From contig JAATFG010000087.1 in NCBI GenBank assembly GCA_015655355.1, forward strand, positions 1 through 36,490: DNA of 36,490 nt, given 5' to 3'. This stretch comes from Lysobacterales bacterium. Lineage in GTDB: Bacteria > Pseudomonadota > Gammaproteobacteria > Xanthomonadales > Xanthomonadaceae. Positions 19,104-35,900 of this stretch are shown piece by piece (position 1 is the stretch's first letter; each line of letters opens with the position of its first letter). The translations under genes and the position numbers were made by a program. The notes under the pieces were generated by a model, which saw only the letters and a program-made list of their open reading frames with translations, was not told the origin of the DNA and did not search any database.

Positions 19104-21560
19104 TTATCTGGCCAACGCCGCGCCGGCGGGACACGCGGCCGGCGGCGCATCCGCCGCATGCGTGCCCCAGCCGCGCGCGTCCGCGGCATCGGCCAACTCG
19201 TAGCGGAGCGTGCCGCCCTGCCTGAGCCTGTCCACGTCCAGCCATACCGCGGTCTGCGCACGGCCATCGAAGCTGGCTGCGGCAACATAGCGCGGCTGCG
19301 GCGCGCGTGCCCCCGCGGCCTCGACCACCAGGGTCTTGCCGCCATCAAGCGCGATGTCGACGCGGTCGAAACGCGGCGGATGCAGCAGCATCTGTCCCGT
19401 GCCCGGCATCAGCGGCGAGAAGCCGATCGCGCCGAACAGGTAGAACGCCGACATCGTGCCGAGGTCGTCGTTGCCGGTGACGCCATCGGGCGCGTTGGTG
19501 AACAAGGTCTGCACCGCATGCAGCACGGTCGCGGTCTTCCACGGCTGGCCGATCAGGCTATACAGCGTCGGCACGTGCATGGTCGGTTCGTTGTTCGGGT
19601 TGTAGCGGAACTGGCCGTAATACGAATACGCGCCATCCACCCAGGCCTTGCGCGCCGCGTGCTGCGGATCGGCCAGCAGTTCGTCGTAGGCGAAGAACGC
19701 GTCCAGGCGCTTGCCCATCGCGTCGTTGCCGCCCATTGCCTGCGCCAGATCCGGCACGTCCTGCGGCACCAGCCACTGGTACTGCCACGCCGTGCCTTCG
19801 TGGAAACCATAGGGCGAGCGCGGGCTGTAGCCGCCATCCGGCGTGGCGAACCAGTCGCCGTTCTCGCTGCGCGGCCGCGGGAAACCGGTGAAGCCGGAAT
19901 CCGCTTCGTGCAGATCCGCATCCCATTCGTTGCGCCAGTTGCCGCCGCGCGCGCGCAAGGCTGCCGCATCGTTGTCCTTGCCGAGTGCGCCTGCCAGCAG
20001 CGACAACGAACAATCGGACAGCGCGTATTCCAGCGTCGCCGACGCGCCGTTCTGCGGGTCCACGTCCATGCCCTTCGCCGGGAAGGTGCGGTCGAAGAAC
20101 ACGAAGCCGTGCTTGAGGTAGTTGTCGTTGCCGGCGCGGCCCTCGAAGCGCGATTGCAGCGGCGGCACGCCCCACGCGTTCTTGCGCAGCGCCGTCCACG
20201 CTTCGTCCTCGACGCCCTTCAAAGCGCCATAACGCCACAGATCGACGAGGAACGGCGTGACCGGATCGCCGGTCATCGTGTTGGTGTCGAAGTTCGCGTA
20301 GCCCCACTTCGGCAGCCAGCCGCCCTGCGCGTCGATCGCCAGCAGCGAGCGGCCGATGTCGCGCGAATGCTGCGGTTCGATCAGCGCCAGCAACTGGTTC
20401 TGCGAACGGTAGGTGTCCCACAGCGAATAGAACTCGTGGTACGTCCAGCCATCGGCGACATGGATCTTGTCGTCGTATCCGCGATAGCGGCCATCGGCGT
20501 CGCTGCCGGTCAGCGGTTGCAGCAATGCGTGGTACAGCGCGGTGTAGAACACGGTGCGGTCGTCGTTGCTGCCGCCAGTGATGCGGATCTTCGCCAGTTC
20601 GCGCTGCCATGCCTGCTGCGCGGCCTTGCGCATCGCGTCGAACGCGAGCGGCTTGCCGTCCTTCTCGCCTTCGGCGCGCAGGTTGGCGCGCGCACCTTCG
20701 AGATCGACGTGCGAGATCGCACTGGTCGCGGTGACGCGGTGCCCGTCCGCCAGATCGAAGCTCAGCCACGCACCGTTGTAGGGCGTGTATTCGCTTTCCA
20801 TGTTGCTGCGCGCGCCCGGCGTGCCGCCGCTCTGGCCCCATACACCGAAGGACTTGAATGGTCGATCGAATTCGATCCGGAACCAGGTGCTGTATTCGTG
20901 CCCGCCGCAGAAACTGGACGTGGTGATCTTGCCTTCGACCGCGCGGTCGCCGACCACCCACACCTGGCTGCCGATCACCCGATGCTTTTCGTTGGCCTGC
21001 GACACGTTGACCAGCACATGGCCCTGCTTCGCGCTTGCGGGGAAGGTGTAGCGCTCGGCGCCGGCGCGGGTCAGCGCGGTGGCTTCGACATCGATGCCGC
21101 CGTAGTCGGTGAGCCTCGTCCTGTAGTAGCCAGCCTGTCCGGCACCGCCATCGTCAGTGTAGTGCGAGGCGTATTTGCGGTAATCGAAGTTCTTCGCATC
21201 ACGCGTGTCGAAATCGCCGCCGGGGCCGATCGTGCCGGTCACCGGCAACACCACCACCTGCCCGCCCTGCTCCCAGCAGCCGGCGCCGGACAGGAACGAA
21301 TGGCCGAAGCCGCGGATCTTCTGGTCGCCGTCGCGCCAGCCGGCGTAATGCGAACCGACCGGGCTGACCTGGATCATCCCGAACGGCGCCGACGCACCGG
21401 GAAAGGTGTTGCCTTCCTCGCGCGTGCCGATGAAGGTGTTGACCTGCGCCGTCAGGCCCTCGCCGGCCTGCGCCGATGGCGCCAGCACGGCCACCAGCAA
21501 CGCGCAACGTGCCAAACTCCGCGACAAGCCGAACCACTTTGAAACCTCGAATCCGTGCAT
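19104..21560 (-). CDS. Secreted GH92 alpha-mannosidase
   Basis: An 818-aa exo-alpha-mannosidase of the Ca2+-dependent GH92 family. An N-terminal Sec signal (LARCALLVAVLAPSAQAGE) is followed by the GH92 N-domain (VNTFIGTREEGNTFPGASAPFGM) and the (alpha/alpha)6 catalytic domain with TYHEFYSLWDTYRSQNQ, GGWLPKWGYANFDTNTMTGDPV, KGMDVDPQNGASATLEYA, the acid-bearing NNEPTMH (E658) and GNDDLGTMSAFY (D698-D699, catalytic-base region). It has no lipobox, so it is probably periplasmic or secreted. The more usual family motif is NEPSHH, so NEPTMH is a variant; the linkage preference is not predictable here. GGTGG lies upstream of the ATG. It diverges from lacI across a 135-nt gap containing an operator-like palindrome, and sapC follows downstream. 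Confidence 0.94.
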   Translation of the reverse strand: MHGFEVSKWFGLSRSLARCALLVAVLAPSAQAGEGLTAQVNTFIGTREEGNTFPGASAPFGMIQVSPVGSHYAGWRDGDQKIRGFGHSFLSGAGCWEQGGQVVVLPVTGTIGPGGDFDTRDAKNFDYRKYASHYTDDGGAGQAGYYRTRLTDYGGIDVEATALTRAGAERYTFPASAKQGHVLVNVSQANEKHRVIGSQVWVVGDRAVEGKITTSSFCGGHEYSTWFRIEFDRPFKSFGVWGQSGGTPGARSNMESEYTPYNGAWLSFDLADGHRVTATSAISHVDLEGARANLRAEGEKDGKPLAFDAMRKAAQQAWQRELAKIRITGGSNDDRTVFYTALYHALLQPLTGSDADGRYRGYDDKIHVADGWTYHEFYSLWDTYRSQNQLLALIEPQHSRDIGRSLLAIDAQGGWLPKWGYANFDTNTMTGDPVTPFLVDLWRYGALKGVEDEAWTALRKNAWGVPPLQSRFEGRAGNDNYLKHGFVFFDRTFPAKGMDVDPQNGASATLEYALSDCSLSLLAGALGKDNDAAALRARGGNWRNEWDADLHEADSGFTGFPRPRSENGDWFATPDGGYSPRSPYGFHEGTAWQYQWLVPQDVPDLAQAMGGNDAMGKRLDAFFAYDELLADPQHAARKAWVDGAYSYYGQFRYNPNNEPTMHVPTLYSLIGQPWKTATVLHAVQTLFTNAPDGVTGNDDLGTMSAFYLFGAIGFSPLMPGTGQMLLHPPRFDRVDIALDGGKTLVVEAAGARAPQPRYVAAASFDGRAQTAVWLDVDRLRQGGTLRYELADAADARGWGTHAADAPPAACPAGAALAR

Positions 21561-21695: not shown

Positions 21696-22730
21696 TTGGA
21701 CAAACCGCGTCGCATCACTCTGAACGACATCGCACGGGCCTGCGGGGTTTCCCGCGCCACGGTGTCGCTGGTGGTGCGCGGCAGCCCGCTGGTGCATGCC
21801 GATACCCGCCGCGCGGTCGAAGCGGAAATGCAGCGCCAGGGCTACGTGTACAACCGCGCCGCGGCGAACCTGCGCCAGCGCGTGTCCAGCGCGGTGGCGC
21901 TGGTGATCAACGACCTGTCCAATCCGTTCTTCGCCGAGTTCGCCGCCGGCGTCGACGAAGCGCTGGGCGCGAAGGGCTACGTCACCCTGCTCGGCAGCAG
22001 CAACGAATCGCCGGCGCGGCAACGCCAGGTGCTGGGCTCGCTGATGGAACATCATCCGGCCGGCATCATCCTCTCGCCGGCCGAAAACAGCAGCGTCGCC
22101 GATCTCGCCCCGGTGCTCGGCCCGCACACCCCGCTGCTGGTGTTCAACCGCGAACTGGTGCGCAGCCCGATGGCCAGGCTCGACTACGACTTCCTCGGCC
22201 TCGACAACCGAGCTGGCGCGCGCCGCGCGACCGAACACCTGCTCGCGCTCGGCCATCGCCGCATCGCGTTCTACGGCGGCCATGCCGATTCAAGTTCGTG
22301 CAGCGAACGCCGCCTCGGCTACCAGGACGCGCTGAAGACCGCCGGGATCAAGGCCGATCCGCACCTGATGATCGAAACCGCGCCGACCCGGCTCGAAGCC
22401 AACACCCACGCCGATGCACTGTTCGCCGCCGCGTCGCCGCAACCGACCGCGGCGGTCTGCTACAACGACGCCGTCGCGCTAGGGCTGATGCTCGGCCTTG
22501 CGCGCCTGGGCCGGCGTCCCGGCGACGACTTCGCGGTCACCGGCTTCGACGACATCCCCGAAGCGGCGGTCGGCCTGCCGCCGCTCACCACCATCAACGC
22601 CGATCCGCGCGCACGCGGCAGACAGGCCGCGGAGTTGCTGCTGCAACGCGCCGCGACACCGTCGCTGCCGCGCCGCACCGTGATCGTGCCCGTGCAACTG
22701 ACCGAACGGAACAGCACTCCCCATGCCTGA
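21696..22730 (+). CDS. LacI-family transcriptional regulator
   Basis: A 344-aa repressor. The N-terminal helix-turn-helix ITLNDIARACGVSRATVSLVV is followed by the hinge-helix region (NRAAANLRQRVS) and a periplasmic-binding-protein-like effector domain (~60-340) with INDLSNPFFAEFAAGV, LLALGHRRIAFYGG, CYNDAVALGLM and VTGFDDIPEA. The effector is unknown; mannose, mannobiose or a phosphorylated product would fit the neighbourhood (inference). The start is a TTG at 21696 with the Shine-Dalgarno GGAAGGGA just upstream. The only upstream ATG runs straight into a stop, and the next internal Met would cut away the HTH. The stop overlaps the fructokinase start by 8 nt, indicating translational coupling. 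Three matching palindromes nearby are its likely operators. Confidence 0.94.
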   Translation: MDKPRRITLNDIARACGVSRATVSLVVRGSPLVHADTRRAVEAEMQRQGYVYNRAAANLRQRVSSAVALVINDLSNPFFAEFAAGVDEALGAKGYVTLLGSSNESPARQRQVLGSLMEHHPAGIILSPAENSSVADLAPVLGPHTPLLVFNRELVRSPMARLDYDFLGLDNRAGARRATEHLLALGHRRIAFYGGHADSSSCSERRLGYQDALKTAGIKADPHLMIETAPTRLEANTHADALFAAASPQPTAAVCYNDAVALGLMLGLARLGRRPGDDFAVTGFDDIPEAAVGLPPLTTINADPRARGRQAAELLLQRAATPSLPRRTVIVPVQLTERNSTPHA

Positions 22731-23718
22731 CACGCGCACCAACACCATCGTCTGTTTCGGCGAAGCCCTGATCGATTTCCTCGCCGAACCGCCGCAACCC
22801 GGCGAAGCCCGCAACTTCCGCCAGTTCGCCGGCGGTGCGCCGGCCAATGCCGCGGTCGCGGTGGCGAAACTGGGCGGGCAATGCGAATTCGTCGGCATGC
22901 TCGGCGAGGACATGTTCGGCGACTTCCTGCTCGACAGCCTGCGCGACGCCGGCGCCGGCGTGCGCTACGTGCGCCGCACCGCCGTCGCGCGCACCGCGCT
23001 GGCCTTCGTCTCGCTCGATGCGCACGGCGAGCGCAGCTTCAGCTTCTATCGCCCGCCGGCCGCCGACCTGCTGTTCCGCGACGCGGATTTCGACGACGCC
23101 TGCTTTGCCGGGGCCGGCATTTTCCATGTGTGCAGCAACAGCCTGACCGATGCCGAGATCGCCGCGGCGACGCTGTCGGGCATGGCCCGCGCGCGCGCCT
23201 CCGGCGCGCTGGTCAGCATCGACCTCAACCTGCGCCCGGCGTTGTGGCCCGACGCCGCGCCGCGACTTCGCGTGTTGTGGCAAGCGCTGGAGGCGGCCGA
23301 TCTGGTCAAGCTTTCGCGCGAGGAGCTGGACTACCTGCGGGAAGGCCGCCTCGGCGACGGCGAAGTCATCGCGCGCCTGTTGCGCAATGCGCGTCTGGTC
23401 CTGATCACCGACGGCGGCGCACCGCTGCGCTGGCACGTGCGCGAGCACAACGGCGAAGTCGCCAGCTTCACGGTCAAGGCCATCGACACCACCGCCGCCG
23501 GCGACGCCTTCATCGGCGGCCTGTTGTCGCAATTGCAGCGCCATGGCGTCGACGCACGCGGTTTCGACGCGTTCCTCGCCGATACCCGCGCGCTCGAGCG
23601 CTGCCTGCGTTATGCCTCGGCCTGCGGCGCGCTGGCGGTGACCCGCCACGGCGCGTTCGCCGCGCTGCCGAGCCATGCCGAAGCGCTGGCCCTGCTCGGC
23701 GAAACCGTCGCCGCCTGA
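22723..23718 (+). CDS. PfkB-family sugar kinase, probable fructokinase
   Basis: A 331-aa cytosolic ribokinase/PfkB-type kinase. It starts with IVCFGEALIDFLAEP, has the family motif 1 as FAGGAPANAAVAVAKLGG, and motif 2 as DTTAAGDAFIGGLLSQL with the catalytic base D261. The more common motif is DTxGAGD, so the Ala in place of the first Gly is a small variation. The overall pattern resembles bacterial fructokinases. The context supports fructose as substrate: the AGE-family enzyme at 31575 would make fructose from mannose, and this kinase would deliver fructose-6-phosphate to glycolysis. The ATG at 22723 overlaps the lacI end by 8 nt. The exact sugar specificity is inferred. Confidence 0.88.
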   Translation: MPDTRTNTIVCFGEALIDFLAEPPQPGEARNFRQFAGGAPANAAVAVAKLGGQCEFVGMLGEDMFGDFLLDSLRDAGAGVRYVRRTAVARTALAFVSLDAHGERSFSFYRPPAADLLFRDADFDDACFAGAGIFHVCSNSLTDAEIAAATLSGMARARASGALVSIDLNLRPALWPDAAPRLRVLWQALEAADLVKLSREELDYLREGRLGDGEVIARLLRNARLVLITDGGAPLRWHVREHNGEVASFTVKAIDTTAAGDAFIGGLLSQLQRHGVDARGFDAFLADTRALERCLRYASACGALAVTRHGAFAALPSHAEALALLGETVAA

Positions 23719-23720
23719 TC

Positions 23721-23736: not shown

Positions 23737-23777
23737 ATGCGTTGCCGCGCACATCGTGATACACATTTGCCCACCAA

Positions 23778-23793
23778 ATTAGATCGATCCAAA
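23778..23793. promoter_or_regulatory. LacI-type operator O2 upstream of the TonB receptor
   Basis: ATTAGATCGATCCAAA matches the palindrome TTTGGATCGATCCAAA except at positions 1 and 4. It lies 150 bp upstream of the receptor ATG and 102 bp centre-to-centre from O3, close to ten DNA helical turns. Confidence 0.75.
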
Positions 23794-23879
23794 AATCCGA
23801 TGCCGATCCCGTGTGCCAGACGTTTCGCGATACCGGCAACAGGCACGGAGCAATCCGGCGGGTTTTTCTCAGGCTGATT

Positions 23880-23895
23880 TTTGGATCGATCCAAA
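23880..23895. promoter_or_regulatory. LacI-type operator O3 (perfect palindrome) upstream of the TonB receptor
   Basis: TTTGGATCGATCCAAA is a perfect 16-bp palindrome centred on CG, 47 bp before the receptor ATG. It is the best copy of the motif shared with 21664-21679 and 23778-23793. Its position near the expected transcription start fits repression by the LacI-family protein encoded next door. Confidence 0.85.
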
Positions 23896-23942
23896 TCCAG
23901 CGCCATCCACGTTCATTCCACCCAGGAGAGAGGGGAACTGCA

Positions 23943-26900
23943 ATGAAGCAAGCCTGCACCCGAAACACGCTGTCCACCGCCATCACCGTGGCATTGGTAG
24001 CCGTCGCCGCACTGCCGGTCAGCGGCTTCGCCCGGCAGACCGCCGCCACGCCCGCCGATGCGCAGGCACCCACCGCGCAGAGCGCCACGTCGGCAACGTC
24101 CGGCAATGCCGCCACCGACCTGGACACGGTCACCGTGACCGGCTACCGCTATTCGATCGAGAAAAGCCTGGACCAGAAGCGCGACGCCAACGCGATCGTC
24201 GACGTGGTCACCGCCGAGGACGTCAGCAAGTTCCCGGACAAGAACGTGGCCGACGCGCTGCAGCGCGTGCCGGGCGTGATCGTCAGCCGCGACGGCGGCG
24301 AAGGCAAGAACGTCAGCGTGCGCGGCCTGTCCTCGGAACTGACCCTGACCGAATTGAACGGCAACTACATCGCCACCGCCGAATCCAACGGCGACCCGAC
24401 GCGTTCGTTCAACTACACCCTGCTGCCGTCGAACATGCTGTCCAGCGCCGAGCTGTTCAAGACGCCGGAAGCGCGCATCGACGAAGGCGGCATCGGCGGC
24501 ACCGTGATCCTGCACACGCGCAAGCCGCTGGAGATGGAATCGAACACCGGCTACGTCACCGCCGAAGGGACCTGGGCCGACACCACCCACAAGACCGACG
24601 GGCAATACTCCGGCTCGTATGCCTGGCACGACAAGGACGACCGCTTCGGCTTCTTCGTCGGCTACAGCGACCAGAAGCGCACCACCCGCACCCTGGGCGC
24701 CAGCACCGAGAACTGGCAGTGGTACGGCGACGATTACGACGCGCACCCGGCGACCGACGTCAACGGCAAGCCGTCCGGGATGAACAGCTACTGGTGGGGC
24801 GAATCCGGCTTCTACGACCAGAGCGGCAACTACTACAGCAACTTCATGATGCCGACCTCGGTCAACCTCGACGTCAAGGAGGAAGACCGCGAGCGCAAGG
24901 GCGGGCAGGCCACCTTCCAGTTCAAGCCGACCGACAACCTGACCCTGACCGCGAACTACTTCCGCTTCGACCTGTCGCAGAACTCGCAGACCAACACGCT
25001 GAAGATTCCGGAATGGAACCTCGCCCGCTACTCAGGCGACGGCAACTGGCCCGGCGGCCGCATGCTCGACGGCCTGAGCTTCGACCCCAGCGGCACCATC
25101 GTCACCGGCGCGAACTACGGCGCGCATCCGGGCAAGACCTACTACTGCGACGGCTATTCGGCCGGACAGGGCGGGCTGGCGAACACCGGCGGTTTCGGCG
25201 CGGACGACTGCACCATCCCGACGCCGCAGATCACCGGCAGCTACAACATCGAAAAGGCCAAGTCGCAGACCTTCGACCTCGAAGCCGAATGGCACGGCGA
25301 AACCGTCGATGCCGACATCAAGGCCGGCCGCACCTGGGCCAGCGGCGGTCCGTCGCTGCAGTTCTCCATGCCGATCAAACCGCGCAAGCAAACCGGGACA
25401 ATCAACAATCCCGATGGCTCGACGACCCCGATCTACACGCTCGGCAACTACGCCAGCGCGTGGAATCTGGCCGGCACGCCGACGATGGCCTTCTCGCCCG
25501 AACTGATGGCGAACCTGAAGAACGGCATCGAGGAAATCGACCTGGGCTCGACCGGCTCGTCGTGGACGCGCAACACCACCCAGCAGAAATACGCGCAGAT
25601 CGACACCACCTGGCACACCGACCTGGGCATTCTCGATTCGCTGCAATTCGGCCTGAAGTACCGCGACGGCGGCATCCACCGCAACACCGGCAACAGCTAC
25701 TGGGCATGCCCGGGCACCGATCCCGGCGATTACGACAACCGGTACTGGAATGGCCAATGCAATGACCTGGCCACCCAGTTCTCGCCGGACTTCATCCATT
25801 CGCTCGGCAATCTCGCCGGCGGCATCGATGCCAGCGCGTTCCCGGCGATCAACTATCCGGCCTACATCGCCTACCTGAACAAGACCTACGGGCCGATGCA
25901 GACCCGGGTCGAGCCCAACTTCGTCTACAACGTCGACGAAAAGATCTACGCCACCTACCTGCAGGCCAACTTCCGCACCGACCGCCTGCGCGGCAACGTC
26001 GGCGTGCGCCTGGTGAGCACGCAGCAGCATGCCGACTCCACCGACCAGATCGATTACTACAACGACTACTTCTACGACGGCGCCGACGGCAATCCGCTGG
26101 CCTGCGCGCAAGGCGACGGCATGCCCACCGGCGCGCCCGACGGCAGCTACTGCGGCAGCGAGCATTACTGGAGACTGCCGGACAGCCAGACCAATCCGGG
26201 CAGCGGGCACAGGTCGTCGTACGTGGTCAGCGCGCTCGACCGCACCTACACCGACGTGTTGCCGAGCTTCAACCTCGCCTACGACCTGACCGACGATCTG
26301 CTGCTGCGCGCGGCCGCGTCGAAGGTGGTCTCGCGCCCGAGCTACGCCGACATCGCCGCGCCGGGCAACCTGTCCTACTACAGCCAGGAATACATCAACG
26401 ACCGCCGCCTGACCGGCGGCGCCGACGAACAAGGCTGGTACGGCAGCGGCAGCAACAAGAATCTGGAACCGTACAAGGCCGACCAGTACGACCTCGGCCT
26501 GGAGTGGTACTTCCATCCCGGTTCGGTGGTTGGCCTCGATCTGTTCCGCAAGAACGTCAGCAACTTCGCGGTGCCGGTGATCCAGGACGTGACCATGCGC
26601 ATCGATGCCAGCAAGATCGAGTTCAACGGCGTGCCGGTGGACGTGCAGAATCCGGTCACGGTGCAGAATTACTCGACCCAGGCCGGCGGCCGCGACGGCG
26701 TCTCCCAGGGCATCGAACTGTATGCGCAGCACACCCTGGATTTCGGCCTCGGCTTCCAGCTCAACTACACCTACAACGACACCAACGAAGCGGCCATCAC
26801 CCTCGAGGACGGCACCAAGATCGGCAAGTCGCCGCTGGTCGGCAGCGCCAGGAACCAGGAAAACTTCACCGTGTTCTACGAGAACAGGAAGCTGCTGCTG

Positions 26901-27155
26901 CGCGCCTCGTACAACCGCCGCGGCGAAGTGGTCGATGGCCTGATCAACGGCCTGAACGTCTACGAAGAGCCGTACCAGCAGATCGACGTCAACGCGGCGT
27001 ACAACTTCACCGACGCGTTCAGCATGACCGCCTCGGTGCTGAACCTGACCAAGGAAGAGACGCGCTCGTACCTGGGCAACGACACCAAGGACCGCTTCTA
27101 CTCCAACAGCTACGCCGGCCGCATCGCGTACCTGGGCCTGACTTACAAGTTCTGA
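23943..27155 (+). CDS. TonB-dependent outer-membrane receptor (Xanthomonas/Caulobacter type)
   Basis: A 1070-aa outer-membrane transporter. The signal peptide (LSTAITVALVAVAALPVSGFA) is followed by an Ala/Thr-rich spacer, a TonB-box-like DTVTVTGYRYS, and a plug domain (~70-190) with DVSKFPDKNVADALQRVPGV, VSVRGLSSELTLTELNG and EGGIGGTVILHTRKPLE. The large beta-barrel ends in the aromatic terminus YLGLTYKF. Length and motifs match the TonB-Xanth-Caul subfamily, commonly linked to uptake of plant or animal glycans. AGGAGAGAGG precedes the ATG at 23943. Two operator-like palindromes lie in the 224-nt gap upstream. Neighbouring glycosidases suggest mannose-containing oligosaccharides as cargo (inference). 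No SusD-like partner is present, as expected for Proteobacteria. Confidence 0.94.
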   Translation: MKQACTRNTLSTAITVALVAVAALPVSGFARQTAATPADAQAPTAQSATSATSGNAATDLDTVTVTGYRYSIEKSLDQKRDANAIVDVVTAEDVSKFPDKNVADALQRVPGVIVSRDGGEGKNVSVRGLSSELTLTELNGNYIATAESNGDPTRSFNYTLLPSNMLSSAELFKTPEARIDEGGIGGTVILHTRKPLEMESNTGYVTAEGTWADTTHKTDGQYSGSYAWHDKDDRFGFFVGYSDQKRTTRTLGASTENWQWYGDDYDAHPATDVNGKPSGMNSYWWGESGFYDQSGNYYSNFMMPTSVNLDVKEEDRERKGGQATFQFKPTDNLTLTANYFRFDLSQNSQTNTLKIPEWNLARYSGDGNWPGGRMLDGLSFDPSGTIVTGANYGAHPGKTYYCDGYSAGQGGLANTGGFGADDCTIPTPQITGSYNIEKAKSQTFDLEAEWHGETVDADIKAGRTWASGGPSLQFSMPIKPRKQTGTINNPDGSTTPIYTLGNYASAWNLAGTPTMAFSPELMANLKNGIEEIDLGSTGSSWTRNTTQQKYAQIDTTWHTDLGILDSLQFGLKYRDGGIHRNTGNSYWACPGTDPGDYDNRYWNGQCNDLATQFSPDFIHSLGNLAGGIDASAFPAINYPAYIAYLNKTYGPMQTRVEPNFVYNVDEKIYATYLQANFRTDRLRGNVGVRLVSTQQHADSTDQIDYYNDYFYDGADGNPLACAQGDGMPTGAPDGSYCGSEHYWRLPDSQTNPGSGHRSSYVVSALDRTYTDVLPSFNLAYDLTDDLLLRAAASKVVSRPSYADIAAPGNLSYYSQEYINDRRLTGGADEQGWYGSGSNKNLEPYKADQYDLGLEWYFHPGSVVGLDLFRKNVSNFAVPVIQDVTMRIDASKIEFNGVPVDVQNPVTVQNYSTQAGGRDGVSQGIELYAQHTLDFGLGFQLNYTYNDTNEAAITLEDGTKIGKSPLVGSARNQENFTVFYENRKLLLRASYNRRGEVVDGLINGLNVYEEPYQQIDVNAAYNFTDAFSMTASVLNLTKEETRSYLGNDTKDRFYSNSYAGRIAYLGLTYKF

Positions 27156-27166
27156 CGTCGTCCCGC

Positions 27167-27197
27167 ATCCCCCGCGCCATGTGGCGCGGGGGATTTC
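27167..27197 (+). terminator. Terminator-like hairpin after the TonB receptor gene
   Basis: ATCCCCCGCGCC (27167-27178), loop ATGT, then GGCGCGGGGGAT (27183-27194): a perfect 12-bp, very GC-rich stem starting 11 nt after the receptor stop. It is followed only by TTCTCC, so the U-tract is short. Termination may be partial, letting some transcription continue into the halogenase-glycosidase genes. Confidence 0.6.
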
Positions 27198-27202
27198 TCC
27201 GA

Positions 27203-27323
27203 CCAACGCGAAGGATCGCGTTGGGAGTGTGCTCGCCGCGTCGCCCTCTCTCCCTCCGACGCGTGATCCTCCCCGTCGCGACCACGTTGTCGCCGATGCC
27301 CGCGGCGAGCACACTCCCAACGC
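27203..27323. repeat. REP-like palindromic element with 23-bp perfect inverted repeat
   Basis: Positions 27218-27240 and 27301-27323 are perfect inverted repeats of 23 bp separated by 60 bp. The left arm can also pair locally: CCAACGCG at 27203-27210 with CGCGTTGG at 27217-27224, loop AAGGAT, giving mutually exclusive folds. The element fills the gap between the receptor and the halogenase and ends 2 bp before an in-frame ATG (27325). It resembles the bipartite extragenic palindromic repeats common in gamma-proteobacteria; no second copy was found in this window. Confidence 0.7.
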
Positions 27324-27342
27324 CATGCCAAAGGAACCGTCC

Positions 27343-28869
27343 GTGAGCGACAGCGACAACCGGATCCGCAGCGTCGTCATCGTCGGCGGCGGCAGCGCCG
27401 GCTGGATGGCGGCCGCGGCGCTGGCCACCTACCTGGGCAAGGGCGCTGCGATTCGTTTGATCGAATCCGGGGAAATCGGCATCGTCGGCGTGGGCGAAGC
27501 CAGCGTGCCGCACATCCGCCTGTTCAACGGGCAACTGCTCGGCATCGACGAAACCGAGTTCGTCCAGCGCACCCAGGGCACGATCAAGCTCGGCATCCAG
27601 TTCCGCGACTGGGGCCGCCTCGGCGACAGCTACGTCCACGGCTTCGGCACCCTCGGCCGCTCGCTCGGGCCGCTGCCGTTCCACCAGTTCTGGCTGAAGC
27701 TGTTCCTGCAGGGACGCGCTTCCGCCATCGGCGACTATTCGCTGCAAACGGTGATGGCGCCGCAAAACAAGTTCGTCGCCCGCCAACGCGACGCGCCCGC
27801 CGGCGCGCCGCTGGCCGACATCGCCTACGCCTACCACTTCGACGCCAGCCTGTACGCGCGCTACCTGCGCGAAGTGTCGGAGAAGCGCGGCGTCAAGCGC
27901 ACCGAAGGCAAGGTCGTCGGCGTCAACCAGCGCGGCGAAGACGGCTTCGTCGAATCGGTGACGATGGAAAGCGGCGAAGTGATCGAAGGCGAACTGTTCA
28001 TCGACTGCTCCGGCTTCCGCGGCCTGCTGATCGAACAGGCGCTGAAAACCGGCTACATCGACTGGACCCGCTGGCTGCCGTGCAACCGCGCGGTGGCGCT
28101 GTCCAGCGAAAGCGGCGACGGCCCGTTGACGCCATACACCCGTGCGACCGCACGCAGCGCCGGCTGGCAGTGGCGCATTCCGCTGCAACACCGCATCGGC
28201 ACCGGCTACGTGTATTCGAGCGAATACCTGAGAGACGATGAAGCGGCGGCGACGCTGCTGGCCAATCTCGACGGCAAGGCGCTGACCGATCCGCTGCAAC
28301 TGCGCTTCACCACCGGCATGCGCCGGAAGTTCTGGAACAAGAATGTCGTCGCATTGGGGCTGGCCAGCGGCTTCCTCGAACCGCTGGAATCGACCAGCAT
28401 CTATCTGGCGCAATCGAGCATCGGCCGCCTGCTCAGCCTGTTCCCCAAGCGCGACTTCAGCCCGCTGCTGAGCGAACGCTACAACCGCGAATCCGCGTTC
28501 GAGTACGAGCGCGTGCGCGATTTCCTGATCCTGCACTACCACGCCACCGATCGCGACGACACGCCGTTCTGGGATTACTGCCGCACCATGTCGATCCCCG
28601 ATTCGCTGCACGAAGCGCTGGAACTGTTCCGCCACGACGGCCGCTACTTCCGCAACGGCGAGGATTTCTTCGCCCTGCCGAACTGGGTGCAGGTGATGCT
28701 GGGCCAGCGCATCGTGCCGCGCGGCTACCACCCGATCGTCGATGAAATGCCGGAGGACAGGCTGGTCGAACACGTCGAAGGCGTGCGCCGCATGCTGGCC
28801 GGCTACGTCGATGCGATGCCGACGCACCAGGCCTTCATCGATGCGCACTGGAAAGCACAGGCCCCCTGA
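27343..28869 (+). CDS. Flavin-dependent tryptophan-halogenase family protein (TonB-receptor-associated type)
   Basis: A 508-aa FAD-dependent enzyme without a signal peptide. Halogenase hallmarks are present: the FAD-binding GGGSAGWMAA near the N-terminus, WQWRIP (W275-P280, the WxWxIP motif that blocks monooxygenase chemistry), a lysine in GTIKLGIQF (K82, equivalent to the catalytic Lys79 of PrnA) and a glutamate in SGFLEPLEST (E346, as in PrnA). The natural substrate is unknown; related enzymes (BrvH and Xanthomonas homologues) halogenate indoles in vitro and occur beside TonB receptors. Its place between receptor and beta-mannosidase genes is unexplained. GTG at 27343 was chosen because AAAGGA lies 7 nt upstream; an in-frame ATG at 27325 abuts the repeat and has no ribosome-binding site. 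The beta-mannosidase starts 3 nt after the stop. Confidence 0.92.
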   Translation: MSDSDNRIRSVVIVGGGSAGWMAAAALATYLGKGAAIRLIESGEIGIVGVGEASVPHIRLFNGQLLGIDETEFVQRTQGTIKLGIQFRDWGRLGDSYVHGFGTLGRSLGPLPFHQFWLKLFLQGRASAIGDYSLQTVMAPQNKFVARQRDAPAGAPLADIAYAYHFDASLYARYLREVSEKRGVKRTEGKVVGVNQRGEDGFVESVTMESGEVIEGELFIDCSGFRGLLIEQALKTGYIDWTRWLPCNRAVALSSESGDGPLTPYTRATARSAGWQWRIPLQHRIGTGYVYSSEYLRDDEAAATLLANLDGKALTDPLQLRFTTGMRRKFWNKNVVALGLASGFLEPLESTSIYLAQSSIGRLLSLFPKRDFSPLLSERYNRESAFEYERVRDFLILHYHATDRDDTPFWDYCRTMSIPDSLHEALELFRHDGRYFRNGEDFFALPNWVQVMLGQRIVPRGYHPIVDEMPEDRLVEHVEGVRRMLAGYVDAMPTHQAFIDAHWKAQAP

Positions 28870-28872
28870 ACC

Positions 28873-31569
28873 ATGACGACGATCGGTTTGCATGAATTCC
28901 CGTCCCGCAACGCATCGCCGTTGCGCTTGCTGTCGGGCTTGTGCCTGCTGCTGTTCGCTGCCGCCACCTTCGCCGCCGAACCGCTGACGACGCCGCTCGA
29001 CCACGGCTGGCAATTCCGCCTGCAACCGGATGACGCGCAAGCGCCCGCGCATGCCGACGCCGCGCAATGGCACGCCGCCACGGTGCCCGGCACCGTGCAC
29101 ACCGACCTGCTTGCAAACAAGTTCATCCCCGACCCCTACGTCGGCGCGGCGGAAGCCGGCCTGCAATGGATCGGCCTGGCGAACTGGGAATACCGCACCA
29201 CCTTCGACGCGCCGCGCGAAGCCTTGCAGGACGCGCGCAGCGACCTGGTGTTCGGCGGCCTCGACACTTTCGCCGAAGTCTGGCTCAACGGTGAAAAACT
29301 GCTCGATGCGAACAACGCCTTCCGCACCTGGCGCGTGCCGGTGCAGGGCAAGCTGCACGCGCACGGCAACGAATTGCGCGTAGTGTTCCATTCACCCATC
29401 ACAATGCTACTGCCGCAGGTGCAGGCGATGCCGCACAAACTCGGCGGCAATTTCCCCTCGCCCTACGGCGACGAACCGCGCGACGCGATGACCGCCAACT
29501 TCGCACGCAAGCCCGGTTACCACTACGGCTGGGACTGGGGGCCGCGCTACGTCACCGCCGGCCTGTGGAAACCGGTAAGGCTGGAAAGCTGGAACGACCT
29601 GCGCATCGACGACCTGCAACTGCGCCAGGACGAGGTGAGCGAAGCAAGCGCGAACATCACCGCGATTGCCACGCTCGATGCGATGCACGCCGGCGACTAT
29701 CGCCTGCGCCTGTGGCAAACCGCGCCGGATGGCACGCGCACGCGCATCACCCAGCGCGACATCGCCGTCGCCGCAGGCACGAGTAAGGTGTCGGTGCCGA
29801 TGCACATCAACGCGCCGCAGCGCTGGTATCCGAACGGCTATGGTGCGCAGCCCTTGTATCGCTACGAACTGGAACTCGGCGACGCCAGGCAAACGCGCGC
29901 GCGCATCGAACGCCGCACCGGACTGCGCAAGATCGAACTGCACCGCGACCCGGATGCGCAAGGCCGCAGCTTTTACTTCGAGGTCAACGGCATTCCGGTG
30001 TTCGCCAAGGGCGCCGACGTGATCCCGTTCGACATGTTCGCGCCGCGCGTGACCCGGGCGCAGTTGCGCCGCGTGCTGCAATCGGCGCGCGACGCCAACA
30101 TGAATTTCCTGCGCAGTTGGGGCGGCGGTTACTACGAGAGCGACGACTTCTTCGACTTGGCCGACGAACTCGGCCTGCTGGTCTGGCAGGATTTCATGTT
30201 CGGCGGCGGCATGCCGCCGGCCTACGACAACGCGTTCCGCGACAACGTGGTCGCCGAAGCGCGCGAACAGGTGCGGCGCCTGCGCAATCATCCGAGCCTG
30301 GCCTTGTGGTGCGGCAACAACGAGGAAGAGGTCGCGTGGAAATACTGGGGCCAGGCCGATGAGTTGAAAACCGCCGAGCCCGCGTTCGCTCAAAAAGTCT
30401 GGAACGGCTACGTGCAATTGTTTGGCCACGATCTGCGCGAAATCGTCGCGCAGGAAGGCGGCGGCATCGCGTACTGGGCCAGTTCGCCAAGCGATGACCT
30501 CGCCGAAGTCGCCAACACGCCCACCAGCGGCGACATGCATTACTGGGAAGTGTGGGGCAATCCGGCGTATCCGCCGACGAAGTACCTCGAAATCACTCCG
30601 CGCTTCATGTCCGAATACGGCCTTCAAGCATGGCCGTCGCCGCGCACGATCGATGCGTTCGCCATACGCTACGAACAATCGATCGATTCGCCGGTGATCG
30701 AAGCGCACCAGAAATTCCTCGCCGGCAAGGGCAACGAGCGCCTGCTGAAATACGTGCGCATGGAATTCGGCGAACCGAAGGACTTCGGCGATTTCGCCTA
30801 CCTGAGCCAGGCGATGCAGGCCGAGGGCATCGAACTGGCCGCGCTGCACCACCGCGCCAGCCGCCCGTACACGATGGGTTCGCTGTTCTGGCAGCTCAAC
30901 GACGTGTGGCCGGGCGCATCGTGGTCGAGCATCGACTGGTTCGGGCGCTGGAAGGCGCTGCAATTCCATGCGCGGCGTTTCTTCGCGCCGGTCGCGGTGG
31001 CCGCGCTGCGCGATGCGCAAGGCAGGACGCAGGTGAGCCTGCTCAACGACCGCACCCGGGCCCTGCGCGGCGAACTGCATCTGCAAGTACTGACGCTGGA
31101 CGGAAAAATCCTGCGCGACGAACGCCAGCTGGTCGAACTGCCGGCATTGTCGGCAACGAAGTTCGCCGACTACGCCGATGCCGATCTGCTCGGCAAGGTC
31201 GATCCGTCGCGCACCGTCGCGACATTCGATCTGCGCGTCGAAAGCGAAGCGCCCACGCGCGGCATCGTGTATTTCAGGCCAGCGAAGGAAATCGCGTGGC
31301 CCGATCCGAACCTGCGCACCGAATTGCGCCGCGACGGCGACGGCTATGCGCTCGACCTGCACGCGGACAAGCTCGTGCGCGCGCTGTGGATCGACTTCGG
31401 CGACAACGACGCCGAACTTTCCGACAATGCGCTGAGCCTGCTGCCGGGCGAAAGCGTTTCCCTGCACGTGGCCTCGAATGCCGGCCTCGAGACGCTGCGC
31501 CAGTCGCTGCACCTGCGTTCGCTGGCCGATGCGGTGCACGCCGATCCCGTTTCCCCTCAACCGAAGTGA
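28873..31569 (+). CDS. Secreted GH2 beta-mannosidase
   Basis: An 898-aa exo-beta-mannosidase that removes terminal beta-mannose, as in the Man-beta1,4-GlcNAc core of N-glycans or in manno-oligosaccharides. A signal peptide (LRLLSGLCLLLFAAATFAAEP) is followed by the sugar-binding jelly-roll domain (GWQFRLQP, NWEYRTTF, WLNGEKLLDANNAFR, YGWDWGPR). Immunoglobulin-like domains and the TIM barrel follow, with ADVIPFDMFAPR, FLRSWGGGYYESDDFFDLADELGL, the acid/base E484 in CGNNEEE and the nucleophile E581 in RFMSEYGLQAWPS. These motifs are specific to GH2 beta-mannosidases as opposed to beta-galactosidases. It starts 3 nt after the halogenase stop and is followed after 5 nt by the isomerase gene, so the three genes form a tight operon. 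Confidence 0.95.
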   Translation: MTTIGLHEFPSRNASPLRLLSGLCLLLFAAATFAAEPLTTPLDHGWQFRLQPDDAQAPAHADAAQWHAATVPGTVHTDLLANKFIPDPYVGAAEAGLQWIGLANWEYRTTFDAPREALQDARSDLVFGGLDTFAEVWLNGEKLLDANNAFRTWRVPVQGKLHAHGNELRVVFHSPITMLLPQVQAMPHKLGGNFPSPYGDEPRDAMTANFARKPGYHYGWDWGPRYVTAGLWKPVRLESWNDLRIDDLQLRQDEVSEASANITAIATLDAMHAGDYRLRLWQTAPDGTRTRITQRDIAVAAGTSKVSVPMHINAPQRWYPNGYGAQPLYRYELELGDARQTRARIERRTGLRKIELHRDPDAQGRSFYFEVNGIPVFAKGADVIPFDMFAPRVTRAQLRRVLQSARDANMNFLRSWGGGYYESDDFFDLADELGLLVWQDFMFGGGMPPAYDNAFRDNVVAEAREQVRRLRNHPSLALWCGNNEEEVAWKYWGQADELKTAEPAFAQKVWNGYVQLFGHDLREIVAQEGGGIAYWASSPSDDLAEVANTPTSGDMHYWEVWGNPAYPPTKYLEITPRFMSEYGLQAWPSPRTIDAFAIRYEQSIDSPVIEAHQKFLAGKGNERLLKYVRMEFGEPKDFGDFAYLSQAMQAEGIELAALHHRASRPYTMGSLFWQLNDVWPGASWSSIDWFGRWKALQFHARRFFAPVAVAALRDAQGRTQVSLLNDRTRALRGELHLQVLTLDGKILRDERQLVELPALSATKFADYADADLLGKVDPSRTVATFDLRVESEAPTRGIVYFRPAKEIAWPDPNLRTELRRDGDGYALDLHADKLVRALWIDFGDNDAELSDNALSLLPGESVSLHVASNAGLETLRQSLHLRSLADAVHADPVSPQPK

Positions 31570-31574
31570 TTGCA

Positions 31575-32849
31575 ATGAACCAACCGATTCCCGCGCACGA
31601 CAGCTTCCGCAGCGAAGCCTTCCTGCGCGACCACATCCGCCGCACGATGGCGTTCTACCATCCGCACTGCATCGATCCGGCCGGCGGCTTCTTCCACTAT
31701 TTCAAGGACGACGGCCGCGTCTACGACGCTTCGCACCGGCACCTGGTCAGCAGCACGCGCTTCGTCTTCAATTACGCGATGGCCGCCAACGAATTCGGCG
31801 GCGAAGATCCGGCCTTGCACGACGAATACCTCAAGGCCGCGCGCCACGGCCTCGCCTTCCTGCGCGACAAGCACCACGACCCGCAAAGCGGCGGTTACTT
31901 CTGGACGCTGCGCGACGGCCAGCCTGAAGATGCGACGCAGCACTGCTACGGCGGCGCCTTCGTGCTGCTGGCGTATTCGGTCGCGGTGAAAGCCGGCATC
32001 GACGAAGCCAAGCCGTGGATGGACGAGCAATGGAACCTGTTGCAGCAACGCTTCTGGGACGAAGCCGCCGGCCTGTACAAGGACGAGGCCGACCGCGACT
32101 GGCACTTCAGCGCCTACCGCGGCCAGAACGCGAACATGCACATGTGCGAAGCGATGCTCGCCGCGTACGAAGCCAGCCACGACGCGCGCTACCTCGACCG
32201 TGCCCTGCTGCTCGCCAACAACATGACCCGCCGCCAGGCCGCGCAATGCGACGGTCTGGTATGGGAGCACTACGACGTCAACTGGAACGTCGACACCGAC
32301 TATCACCGCGACGACCCGAAGCACCTGTTCCGCCCGTGGGGTTTCCAGCCCGGCCACCAGACCGAGTGGGCCAAGCTGCTGCTGATCCTCGATGGCCACC
32401 TGCGCGACGCCGGCCGTGCCGCCGATTGGCCGGTGCCGAAGGCGCGCGAACTGTTCGACCGCTCGGTCGCGGCGGCATGGGACAGCGGATTCGGCGGCCT
32501 CGTGTACGGCTTCGCGCCCGAAGCGCTGCGCAAGGACGTCGAAGGCCCATCGCTGCCCGATGGCAAGAACTTCATCTGCGACGGCGACAAGTATTTCTGG
32601 GTGCAGGCCGAATCCATCGCCACCGCCGCGCGCCTGGGCGCCGCTGCCGGCGAAGCGTATTGGGCGTGGTACGACAGGCTGTGGGATTACGCCTGGAACC
32701 ACATGATCGACCACGAATACGGCGCGTGGTATCGCATCCTCGACCGCGAGAACCGCAAGTACGACGACGAGAAAAGCCCCGCCGGAAAAACCGACTACCA
32801 CACCATGGGCGCCTGCCACGACGTGTTGGCGGTGTTGCGCCGAGGTTGA
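31575..32849 (+). CDS. AGE-family sugar isomerase/epimerase, probable D-mannose isomerase
   Basis: A 424-aa cytosolic (alpha/alpha)6-barrel enzyme of the N-acylglucosamine 2-epimerase superfamily. Recognisable segments are DPAGGFFHYFKDDGRVYD, HLVSSTRFVFNYAMA, NANMHMCEAMLAAYEA, FQPGHQTEWAKLLL (H261) and TDYHTMGACHDVLAVL (H409, H415). The two histidine regions correspond to the catalytic His pair of YihS and mannose isomerases. In this context the likely reaction is D-mannose to D-fructose, feeding the fructokinase at 22723. Cellobiose or mannobiose 2-epimerase and GlcNAc 2-epimerase are alternatives that cannot be excluded without phylogeny. No signal peptide is seen. The gene is 5 nt from the beta-mannosidase and 105 nt from the following GH92 gene. 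Confidence 0.88.
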   Translation: MNQPIPAHDSFRSEAFLRDHIRRTMAFYHPHCIDPAGGFFHYFKDDGRVYDASHRHLVSSTRFVFNYAMAANEFGGEDPALHDEYLKAARHGLAFLRDKHHDPQSGGYFWTLRDGQPEDATQHCYGGAFVLLAYSVAVKAGIDEAKPWMDEQWNLLQQRFWDEAAGLYKDEADRDWHFSAYRGQNANMHMCEAMLAAYEASHDARYLDRALLLANNMTRRQAAQCDGLVWEHYDVNWNVDTDYHRDDPKHLFRPWGFQPGHQTEWAKLLLILDGHLRDAGRAADWPVPKARELFDRSVAAAWDSGFGGLVYGFAPEALRKDVEGPSLPDGKNFICDGDKYFWVQAESIATAARLGAAAGEAYWAWYDRLWDYAWNHMIDHEYGAWYRILDRENRKYDDEKSPAGKTDYHTMGACHDVLAVLRRG

Positions 32850-32954
32850 GGTTTTGCGTGCGCGTGATGCCACCCGCACGCGGTGTTCTCCGTTCTTCCG
32901 GCGCGGACAACCGCCGCGCCGTTCCCGTTTCAGCCTGACAGCGAATCCGCCGCC

Positions 32955-35900
32955 ATGATCTCCATCTCTTCTTCCCGCCTGCGCTGGCAGTTCGTGGCCA
33001 GCACCGTTCTCGCCGCCGCATTGACCGGTTGTGCCACCCGGCCTCGTGCAGCCGAGCCGACACCGGCATCGCCCGCATCGGCGAAGGCGTTGTTCTGGTC
33101 GTCCTTCGAAGCCGGTGAGCCGCAACCGAACCAAGACCGGGGTGCGAACGCTCTGGCCGTCCACGCCTCCGACGGCCCCGATTCCGCCTACACGGCCAAG
33201 ACGCTCGTCGGATTCACCGGCGTGCATTCGCTGGAATACGGCGGGAAACTCGCCGACGGCGACAACGGCTACGTGTCGCGCGAACTGTTCGACGTCTCCA
33301 TCCCGGTGACCGCCGCGACCGAGCTATCCTACCAGGTCTTCCCGCAGTTCATCGATGGCGACCTGCGTTATCCGAGCACCTTCGTCGCCATCGATCTGCA
33401 TTTTACCGATGGCACCCGGCTGTCCGAACTCGGCGCGCGCGACCAGCACGGCTTCATCCTGTCGCCGCGCGGGCAAGGCGAATCGAAGACGCTGTACGCG
33501 CGGCAGTGGAACCACGTGCAGTCGCGCATCGGCGAGGTGGCCGCGGGCAAGACCATCGACCGGATTTCGCTCGGTTATCAGGCGCCGTTCGGCGCCGCCG
33601 ATTTCCGTGGTTGGCTGGACGACATCCGCATCGACAACGTGCCGGTTGCCGCCGCGTCGAAGCATCCCAGAGACTACGTGCTGACCACGCGCGGCACCAA
33701 CTCCAGCGATTCCTTCTCGCGCGGCAACAACATTCCCGCCACGGCGATGCCGCACGGCTTCAATTTCTGGGCGCCGGCCACCAATGCCGGCTCGCTGAGC
33801 TGGTATTACGAATACGCCCGGGGCAACGACGCGCGGAACCTGCCGCGCCTGCAAGCGCTGACGCTGAGCCACGAACCCAGCCCGTGGATGGGCGACCGCC
33901 AGACGTTCCAGGTCATGCCGTCGCTGGCCGGCGGCGTGCCCGCCGCCAATCGTGCCGACCGCGCCGTGCCGTTCCGCCACGAGAACGAGATCGCGCGCCC
34001 GTACTACTACGGCGTGCGGCTGGACAACGGCATCCATGCGGAAATCGCGCCGACCGACCACGCGGCGATGTTCCGCTTCCGCTTTCCCGGCGACGACGCG
34101 AGCCTGATCTTCGACAACGCCACCGACCAGGGCGGCCTGTTCCTGTCGCCCGCCACCGGCGAACTGACCGGTTACACCGACACGCGCAGCGGCCTGTCCA
34201 ACGGCGCGACGCGCATGTACGTCTACGCCAGGTTCGACCGCCCGGTCAGCGCCAGCGGCAAGCTGGTCGCAACCGACGGCGCGAAAGACGGCAAGCCGCG
34301 CGTCAACGTGCCCGGCTACTTCCGCTTCGACGCCGGCAAGGACCGCACCGTCACCATGCGCATCGCCACCTCGCTGATCAGCGTCGAACAGGCCAAACAC
34401 AACCTCGCGCTCGAAATCGCCGACGATGACAACTTCGACGACGTGCGCGAACGCGCGCAGCGCGCGTGGGACGACAAGCTGGGCGTGATCGAAGTCGAAG
34501 GCGCCAGCGCGGATCAGCTGACCACGCTGTATTCCAACCTGTACCGGCTGTTCCTGTACCCGAATTCGGCGCACGAAAACGCCGGCAGCAACGCCGCGCC
34601 GGCGTGGCGGCACGCGGTGCAGTCTTCGGCCAGCCGGAACATCCCGGCGGGCACGACCGAAACGCAAACCGGCGCGGCGATCGCCGACGGCAAGCTCTAC
34701 GTCAACAACGGTTTCTGGGACACCTACCGCACCGAATGGGCGGCGGATGCGCTGTTCGCGCCGGACGACACCACCGAAATGATCGGCGGCTTCCTGCAAC
34801 ACTACCGCGACGGCGGATGGGTGCCGCGCTGGTCGTCGCCCGGCTACGCCAACCTGATGACCGGCACCAGCGCCGACGCCTCGTTCGCCGATGCTTACGT
34901 GAAGGGCATCGCCGGCATCGACGCAACTGCGGTCTATCAAGCACTGATCAAGGACGCCGCCGTCGCACCGCCGAACGACAACGTCGGCCGCAAGGGCATG
35001 GACGTGGCGCCGTTCATCGGCTACACGCCGAGCTCGGTGAACGAAGGCGTGTCCTGGTCGCTGGAAAACAACATCAACGACTACGCCATCGCGAACATGC
35101 TCGCGGCGATGGCGAAAGATCCCGAACCGCCGTTGCCGCGCAAGCGGCTGGAAGAGGAAAGCGCGTACTACCGCGGCCGTTCGCTCGACTACGTGCACGT
35201 GTTCGATCCGGCGATCGGGTTCTTCCAGGGACGTTCGGTCGATGGCAAATGGAAATCCGGCGCCCACGACTACGACCCCGAAATCTGGAACCACGATGGC
35301 GATTACACCGAAACCGACGGTTGGGGCTTCGCCTTCCTCGCCCCGCATGACGGTCAGGGCCTGGCCAACCTCTACGGCGGTCGCGATGGACTGGCGCGCA
35401 AACTGGACGGCTATTTCGCCACGCCCGAAACCGCGCTGCATCCCGGCGCCTATGGCGACGTGATCCACGAGATGGTCGAAGCGCGCGACGTGCGGCTGGG
35501 GCAGTTGGGCTTCTCCAACCAGGTCGCGCACCACGTGCCGTGGATGTACCTGTACGCCGGGCAGCCGTGGCGCACGCAGGCCATCGTCCGTGACGTGCTG
35601 TCGCGGGTGTTCATCGGCTCGGAGATCGGCCAGGGCTATCCGGGCGACGAGGACAACGGCGAAACCTCGGGCTGGTGGCTGTTCGCCGCGCTGGGCTTCT
35701 ATCCGTTGCAGATGGGCAGCGGCGACCTGGTGATCGGCTCGCCGTTGTTCACCAAGGCCACCGTGCATCTGCGGAACGGACGCACGCTGACGATCCGCGC
35801 GCCGGACAACAGCCGCGACAACGTCTACGTCGCCGGCGTCCGCGTCAACGGCAAGGACTGGAACAGCACCGCGATCCCGCATCGCCTGCTGGCCGAAGGC

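Follow-up and report, generated by a model that had tools for sequence, protein, structure and literature searches.

The window analysed here, a stretch of 36,490 nucleotides that forms bases 1-36,490 of contig C115 in a 2.65-Mb metagenome-assembled genome of a Lysobacterales bacterium (94% complete, 7.5% contamination), carries a gene for a flavin-dependent halogenase inside an operon of sugar-degrading enzymes (Table 1). Our comparison of this locus with those of relatives demonstrated that the steady partner of the halogenase is the gene for a TonB-dependent receptor and not the mannoside genes, and that the halogenase is an optional passenger of receptor operons, which persist without it. 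In the window the operon runs from the receptor through the halogenase, a GH2 enzyme and an AGE-family protein to a GH92 lipoprotein, with a LacI regulator and a PfkB kinase upstream, while the opposite strand holds a second GH92 gene with a SapC gene directly behind it. An earlier note on this DNA had placed an intact flavin halogenase behind a TonB receptor and 3 nt from a beta-mannosidase, and the measured gaps of 187 nt (receptor stop to halogenase start) and 3 nt agree with that description, as do the profile match and the alignments reported below.

Table 1. Features of the halogenase locus, with positions counted from the first base of the window.
Feature	Position	Strand	Basis or remark
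SapC-family protein (PF07277)	18204..18899	-	only SapC found in the window genome
Second GH92 alpha-mannosidase	19104..21560	-	signal-like N-terminus at ATG 21560
LacI-family regulator	21696..22730	+	domain match
PfkB-family sugar kinase	22723..23718	+	best NCBIfam match fructokinase, below that model's cut-off
TonB-dependent receptor (TIGR01782 TonB-Xanth-Caul)	23943..27155	+	PF00593, PF07715, TIGR01782
Hairpin directly past receptor stop, 13-nt perfect arms	27167..27194	+	folding
Long inverted repeat, 26-nt arms, 60-nt spacer	27215..27326	+	reaches halogenase start region
Flavin-dependent halogenase (PF04820), BrvH/Xcc4156 type	27343..28869	+	profile, motifs, alignment, Foldseek
GH2 beta-mannosidase	28873..31569	+	ATG 28873, 3 nt past halogenase stop; signal-like N-terminus
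AGE-family protein (PF07221)	31575..32849	+	best NCBIfam match D-mannose isomerase, below that model's cut-off
GH92 alpha-mannosidase, lipoprotein-type signal (LTGC)	32955..36434	+	profile, N-terminus

The halogenase gene is a complete open frame of 508 amino acids, and residues 11-471 of its product match the PF04820 Trp_halogenase profile (E 1.8e-192, 640.7 bits, cut-off 21) over positions 2-458 of 458, which places it in that family. It is the only full-length PF04820 match in the window genome, the two others (46 and 40 bits) being parts of one open reading frame (ORF). The GTG start codon at 27343 is preceded by AAGGA at a distance of 7 nt; the in-frame ATG at 27325 could serve as an alternative start, although it stands at the border of an arm of an inverted repeat. 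The protein carries GGGSAG (GxGxxG) at residues 15-20, Lys82 (TIKLG), WQWRIP at 275-280 and Glu346 (FLEPLES), and these sites align with those of 9luq, Xcc4156, BrvH and PyrH. The AlphaFold2 model is confident (predicted local distance difference test, pLDDT, 86.1), and Foldseek ranked Xcc4156 first (template modelling (TM) score 0.93, 48% identity), followed by 9luq and BrvH. Judged by these data, the window protein is a flavin halogenase with an intact active site and fold that is predicted to be active. The catalytic Lys and Glu are retained in 139 of 139 halogenase ORFs of related loci (L004-L173, with L084-L093 not used, the window included and some duplicate loci counted), and in 108 of the 118 halogenase ORFs of a census of Pseudomonadota described below. 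In a quick tree of 160 halogenases and four references, rooted on PyrH as the sole tryptophan halogenase included, the window protein grouped with BrvH and Xcc4156 and apart from PyrH, a comparison that the earlier note had proposed; the window protein, BrvH, Xcc4156 and 9luq fall in one set of 139 rows, 20 of which show no receptor in their stretch. Its placement thus adds the window enzyme to the BrvH/Xcc4156 group as a new member.

Signal-like N-termini, assessed by eye and hydropathy, were found on the receptor (ATG 23943, inside an ORF open from 23811), on both GH92 enzymes and on the GH2 enzyme, while none was found on the halogenase, which begins straight in the motif that binds flavin adenine dinucleotide (FAD). 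The operon-end GH92 has a lipobox as well as a long extension ahead of its GH92N domain (32955-33060), and is probably a lipoprotein. Taken by family, the enzymes would form a complete route, with alpha-mannosidases, a beta-mannosidase, a conversion of mannose to fructose and one of fructose to fructose 6-phosphate. The genes identified from 18204 to 36434 include no inner-membrane sugar transporter; the MFS gene at 5675-7021 is separated from the locus by unrelated genes, and MFS-type genes were labelled in 15 of the 59 related loci that carry the receptor type of the window. Upstream, in the region 11531-17475, an EAL-domain response-regulator gene (at 11531-14728) precedes the gene for a large hybrid histidine kinase that has an Hpt domain.

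Among these 59 loci GH2 was labelled in 43 and GH92 in 39, together with enzymes of N-glycan breakdown, namely GH47 in 8 and PNGase F, GH20, GH85 and GH125 in 4 each, all of these being lower bounds because the stretches differ in length. Since GH2 and GH92 are frequent and N-glycan enzymes recur in the loci of relatives, high-mannose N-glycans appear to be the likely substrate of the locus. The earlier description as a mannoside-degradation operon is refined accordingly, from a general mannoside locus to what looks like an N-glycan locus.

The role of the halogenase does not follow from this context. In nine of the 59 loci receptor and halogenase occur without any of eight labelled mannosidase and N-glycan hydrolase families, although the neighbours were not all identified and three of these nine stretches are short. 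Among the 80 loci sampled, the 21 that are more distant have no labelled GH2 or GH92; a PF10091 glucanase-type gene is present in 17 of them and an ABC sugar-binding protein in 15, and halogenases of 62-66% identity lie in receptor operons with PF10091 glucanase-type and ABC importer genes. We take PF10091 to include beta-1,2-glucanases. Likewise, halogenase paralogues in the window's own family adjoin pullulanase, GH13 and GH97 genes. The suggestion of the earlier note that the mannoside context might be a clue to function is thus not borne out, given that sister enzymes lie near glucanase, pullulanase/amylase or SapC-Cupin_8 genes. A mannoside-specific role was ruled out because other glycan genes stand beside the sister enzymes and because the halogenase is missing from syntenic loci.

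What stays with these enzymes is the receptor. Among the 81 halogenases of the 80 best genome loci, 71 have a same-strand receptor upstream within 700 bp (median gap 84 nt). Of the other ten, seven have a receptor farther off or in a different orientation and three have none in their stretch, two of them with fewer than 400 bases upstream (L049, L080) and one with a pullulanase-type gene there (L074). These loci were picked by halogenase similarity and cannot show how often receptors of Massilia and its kin lack a halogenase. To avoid picking by similarity to the window protein, PF04820 was sought in 299 Pseudomonadota genomes, and 36 of them gave matches at E <= 1e-80. Every listed match that lay outside the window's family was taken, which covered 32 genomes and yielded 79 regions with 118 halogenase ORFs. 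Of these ORFs, 52 have a receptor within 300 bp, 82 within 2.5 kb and 102 within 6 kb. Counted by region, a receptor is found within 300 bp in 50, within 700 bp in one more and within 2.5 kb in a further 16, and 12 have none. The 50 closely linked regions would have a probability of 4e-35 under a generous assumed background of 8% per gene, the assumed range of 3-8% being taken from the 72 receptors of X. campestris (PMC1790865, in part) and from first-look counts rather than genome by genome. At most five candidates per genome were scored in the genome searches, and at most two in the receptor search, so that the counts drawn from these searches, those below for the window's own family included, are lower bounds. 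The receptor linkage that the earlier note mentioned for such halogenases was thus observed in both samples. Among the papers listed by our searches of the open-access literature none connects these halogenases with TonB receptors, with polysaccharide loci or with SapC, which does not prove that no such paper exists; nor did these listings show the variant described here, a receptor-linked halogenase that is an optional part of a probable N-glycan operon, along with a receptor-halogenase cassette that is spread over Pseudomonadota.

In the window's own family the linkage is one-sided. A halogenase orthologue (at least 69% identity) was found in 20 of 297 family genomes, each of which also has the receptor orthologue, itself found in 70 of the 297 (hypergeometric probability 2.7e-14); the two genes lie within 5.1 kb of each other in 19 of the 20, while in the twentieth (G279) they are on separate contigs. 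In the other 50 genomes with the receptor no halogenase orthologue was found. A sampling led by the receptor and confined to this family recovered regions from 40 of the 70 genomes, 15 with and 25 without halogenase; in one of them (L113), where only 174 nt lie beyond the receptor, the status was taken from the genome-wide search. The order GH92 (opposite strand), receptor, GH2 of L095 and L096 lacks a halogenase, while L099 has GH92 and a PKD/F5_F8 protein (both on the opposite strand), receptor, halogenase and GH2. Similarly, L100 and L102 read GH2, AGE, GH92, receptor, GH92, LacI, MFS, PfkB without halogenase, and L103, L105, L108 and L110 share this order as far as LacI and end with PfkB and a halogenase. 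The earlier note had held that its proposal would fail if the halogenase were absent from otherwise syntenic loci of close relatives, and such loci exist (L095, L096, L100, L102), as do the 50 genomes just mentioned.

The gap between receptor and halogenase is itself structured. It contains the hairpin and the long inverted repeat listed in Table 1 and folds far better than its shuffles (z -7.3 in the window), and 46 of 58 receptor-halogenase gaps, the window included, fold more than 2 standard deviations better than shuffles, L052, L056, L058 and L120 having been omitted because of gap length. With up to 2 mismatches allowed, the core of the long-repeat arm had no other copy in the window genome, and with up to 1 allowed it was absent from 37 further genomes of the genus. 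The folds may point to a protection of the receptor mRNA or to a lower level of halogenase synthesis.

As to what the enzyme does, we tentatively favour the reading that this optional halogenase of receptor operons brominates or chlorinates, in the cytoplasm, an aromatic residue carried by a peptide or protein of the uptake system. In the presence of the glycan the LacI regulator would switch on the halogenase together with the receptor, and the hairpin behind the receptor gene would keep the halogenase level below that of the receptor. From what is known of the family, reduced FAD (FADH2) from a general flavin reductase, oxygen and halide would yield hypohalous acid, which Lys82 and Glu346 would deliver to the substrate. 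Because it has no signal-like N-terminus, the halogenase must act in the cytoplasm, on something that is there when the operon is on, and halogenation would precede export, while the target protein is still cytoplasmic. The substrate would be a peptide-borne aromatic rather than free tryptophan, which is unlikely because the loop residues of PyrH are missing and because Xcc4156 and BrvH do not use free tryptophan (PMC7336383, in part). A peptide or protein target would fit the open active site of the relatives, the linkage to the receptor and the presence of a hydroxylase partner in a sister branch.

A number of results weigh against a target in the receptor. Halogenation of one particular receptor residue would predict that this residue is conserved wherever the halogenase occurs and can vary elsewhere. 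In a comparison of 67 distinct receptors with halogenase (73 minus six duplicates) and 25 without, no Trp, Tyr or His column cleanly separated the two sets. The columns that passed our screen (Trp/Tyr/His frequency difference above 0.3 between the sets and at least 0.8 in one of them) were position 663 (Tyr 0.82 with halogenase and 0.24 without; His in the window), His740 (0.93 and 0.52), Tyr1112 and His974 (both described below) and, in the opposite direction, Trp462 (0.58 and 1.00; Phe in the window). Three columns of any residue are invariant with halogenase and at or below 0.70 without: one Thr, His974 and Tyr1112. His974 (67 of 67 against 17 of 25, or 1.00 against 0.68) owes its pattern to one change in one clade. 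Tyr1112 (window positions 27144-27146, in the numbering of the ORF open from 23811), the third residue from the receptor end, is Tyr in all 67 receptors with halogenase and Trp in 8 of the 25 without (1.00 against 0.68); there have been about five changes of state at this position, and no halogenase-bearing receptor has Trp there, yet an independent-pair test was not significant, 1.7 of 6 pairs agreeing, none opposing and the rest being equal. Picked among all aromatic columns, Tyr1112 may be a chance finding and is a weak hint that leaves our weighing of the readings unmoved. More diverse receptors, 52 linked ones (non-redundant at 60%, window added) and 14 unlinked ones, were also compared, with kinship not controlled. 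Here, among the aromatic columns, only Tyr216 (0.62 against 0.00; Phe in the window) and Tyr1064 (0.71 against 0.29) were clearly commoner in linked receptors. The unlinked set had numbered 19 when judged by 1.5-kb flanks, and five high-scoring, orthologue-like receptors were removed, three of which had a halogenase 5 kb away.

Moreover, Lysobacter loci (L030 against L133 and L040) show an apparent exchange of the whole receptor inside a conserved operon, the halogenases being 92%, the GH2 enzymes 79-81% and the receptors 62-64% identical. This disparity between halogenase and receptor indicates that the enzyme is not tuned to one receptor sequence, and when segments retained after the exchange were sought in the receptor only the generally conserved plug region stood out. 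Co-evolution does not discriminate, because the identity correlation over 49 loci is about the same for halogenase and receptor (r 0.65) as for receptor and GH2 (0.59; halogenase and GH2, 0.43). To these points are added 16 of the 118 census ORFs with no receptor in their stretch, the four loci of the window's genus in which the halogenase stands 5 kb from the receptor at the operon end, and at least eight changes in halogenase presence on a 92-row receptor tree, likewise a quick one, six of which are forced by well-supported branches. Adjacency to the receptor gene may also merely reflect co-induction. Of the proposal in the earlier note that an aromatic residue of a receptor loop is the target, one suggestive column, Tyr1112, thus survives, while the lack of a clean signature and the receptor exchange speak against tight tuning; a specific receptor loop is not supported, the C-terminal Tyr is a weak lead, and a generic receptor residue or another protein is a possible target.

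Several of these observations would suit a halogenase that makes a diffusible indole- or phenol-type compound warding competitors off the glycan, its place in the operon serving co-induction. Such an explanation fits the independence from any one glycan, the lack of a clean receptor signature, the receptor exchange and the repeated gain and loss, and BrvH-type enzymes do halogenate indole in vitro (PMC5945002 and PMC7336383, both in part). However, no biosynthetic or efflux set was present among the recurrent neighbour clusters, in which not every neighbour was identified, and pure co-induction leaves unexplained why the receptor stays constant while the hydrolases differ; we regard this explanation as somewhat less likely than the favoured one. 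It is improbable that the protein is a flavin oxygenase with no halogenating activity in the cell, acting instead as an oxidase, hydroxylase or redox sensor for regulation or oxygen removal: seven relatives in tandem arrays have lost the catalytic Lys, so the clade has members that cannot work in the usual way, but the window protein and the 139 ORFs keep Lys and Glu, and Xcc4156 and two Xanthomonas companions are reported to brominate test substrates (PMC7336383, in part). That the halogenase acts on cargo of the receptor, whether an aryl or indolyl aglycone or some glycopeptide, is one of the roles raised in the earlier note and can be given very little credence. Although PNGase F, GH85 and GH125 in some relatives' loci might let glycopeptides with aromatics enter, the sugar-cleaving enzymes bear signal-like N-termini and the halogenase does not, the enzyme group is not tied to one glycan, some relatives being neighbours of glucanase, pullulanase/amylase or SapC-Cupin_8 genes, a setting in which an aglycone would not be expected, and syntenic loci manage without the halogenase.

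The preferred reading, a peptide- or protein-borne aromatic as the substrate, draws part of its appeal from another part of the tree. In one large halogenase branch the gene order is receptor, SapC, Cupin_8, halogenase, often with DUF6445, and the best solved relatives of the Cupin_8 protein tested are the protein hydroxylases FIH and JMJD5; sequence comparison gave no solved relatives for the SapC and DUF6445 proteins tested. DUF6445 (e.g. L134:7572-8270), a family of unknown function, recurs beside SapC-Cupin_8-halogenase cassettes. The window does not have this cassette. It contains no Cupin_8 match, and its SapC gene lies outside the operon, on the other strand, 5 kb ahead of the receptor and 8.4 kb from the halogenase. 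The product of this gene is closest to a protein labelled Pantoea from a metagenome-assembled genome (75%), then to Pseudoxanthomonas (63-64%) and Pseudomonas proteins, rather than to the cassette type. Within the family, SapC occurs within 15 kb of the receptor orthologue in G000, G016 and G091 only. The SapC that the earlier note mentioned is thus present in the window; because SapC is near the receptor in few genomes and the window's copy is unlike the cassette type, it is given little weight and was rejected as a tight partner in this lineage.

The tandem arrays, with three or more halogenases, include one divergent copy with R, S or A in place of the catalytic Lys beside copies that keep it. 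The Lys-less copies start at L174:3486, L181:6769, L183:5994, L184:6444, L185:2181, L198:6540 and L200:9138, six of the seven stretches hold a receptor, and these copies are possible pseudo-enzyme partners. Single Lys-less relatives were seen in L251 and L252. Separately, a table of a colony-morphology screen in freshwater Sphingomonas reports one insertion in a gene named tryptophan halogenase (PMC11340318, in part).

Read more broadly, the census could reflect a dedicated Pseudomonadota system in which halogenases of receptor cassettes, alone or with SapC and an FIH-like hydroxylase, would modify aromatics of TonB receptors or partner proteins before export, so that the outer membrane would carry a post-translational modification inducible by glycan, and in which BrvH and the Xanthomonas "indole" halogenases would be members; we consider this generalization doubtful. 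Whichever explanation holds, the job of this halogenase group becomes testable. BrvH and the Xanthomonas halogenases have been studied as biocatalysts, and the census points to TonB-receptor operons as the place to look for their natural substrates, while pairs of the same operon with and without halogenase in related genomes permit a clean comparison by knockout and proteomics or metabolomics. A protein target would mean a new kind of bacterial envelope modification, and a small-molecule product would mean that glycan uptake is wired directly to chemical defence.

The closest known enzymes are Xcc4156 (PDB 6y1w), BrvH (6frl) and the Pseudoalteromonas protein 9luq, which share the fold of the window protein (TM 0.91-0.93 by query length), its Lys/Glu pair and WxWxIP at 43-49% identity, and which all nest, as it does, in a largely receptor-linked clade. 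Xcc4156 belongs to the SapC-Cupin_8 branch and BrvH and 9luq to other branches, none of them with N-glycan-type enzymes. For BrvH and for three halogenases of Xanthomonas the native substrates are said to "remain unknown" (PMC7336383, in part), in agreement with the statement in the earlier note that the physiology of receptor-linked halogenases is unsolved, and the open active site has led to a peptide or larger substrate being considered for Xcc4156 and BrvH (PMC7336383 and PMC5945002, both in part). For Xcc-b100-4345 (Ismail et al. 2019), with which motifs alone were compared, ATVPHI/HGFGT is given (PMC8269204, in part) where the window protein has ASVPHI/HGFGT, and in the motif lists of the halogenase ORFs compared here ATVPHI occurs in the more distant glucan-type group and not in the N-glycan-type one. 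The tryptophan halogenases PrnA, RebH, PyrH and Thal share the catalytic Lys/Glu and the FAD fold at 30-36% identity, and PyrH has 12 extra residues in the substrate-loop region, where a loop closes over tryptophan (PMC7336383, in part), with no counterpart in the window protein, which thus lacks the long substrate-closing loop of free-tryptophan enzymes of the PyrH type. A marine halogenase has been speculated to make harmful species or to modulate virus-host receptor interactions, with no receptor operon described in the text available (PMC11337851, in part). In its organization the window most resembles the carbohydrate utilization loci containing TonB receptors (CUT loci; Blanvillain et al. 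2007, PMC1790865, in part), in the description of which "halogen" occurs 0 times in the main text. By the wording of that paper it is a partial CUT locus, because no inner-membrane sugar transporter adjoins it; like CUT loci it places a receptor, sugar-degrading enzymes and a sugar-type regulator side by side, and to these it adds a halogenase.

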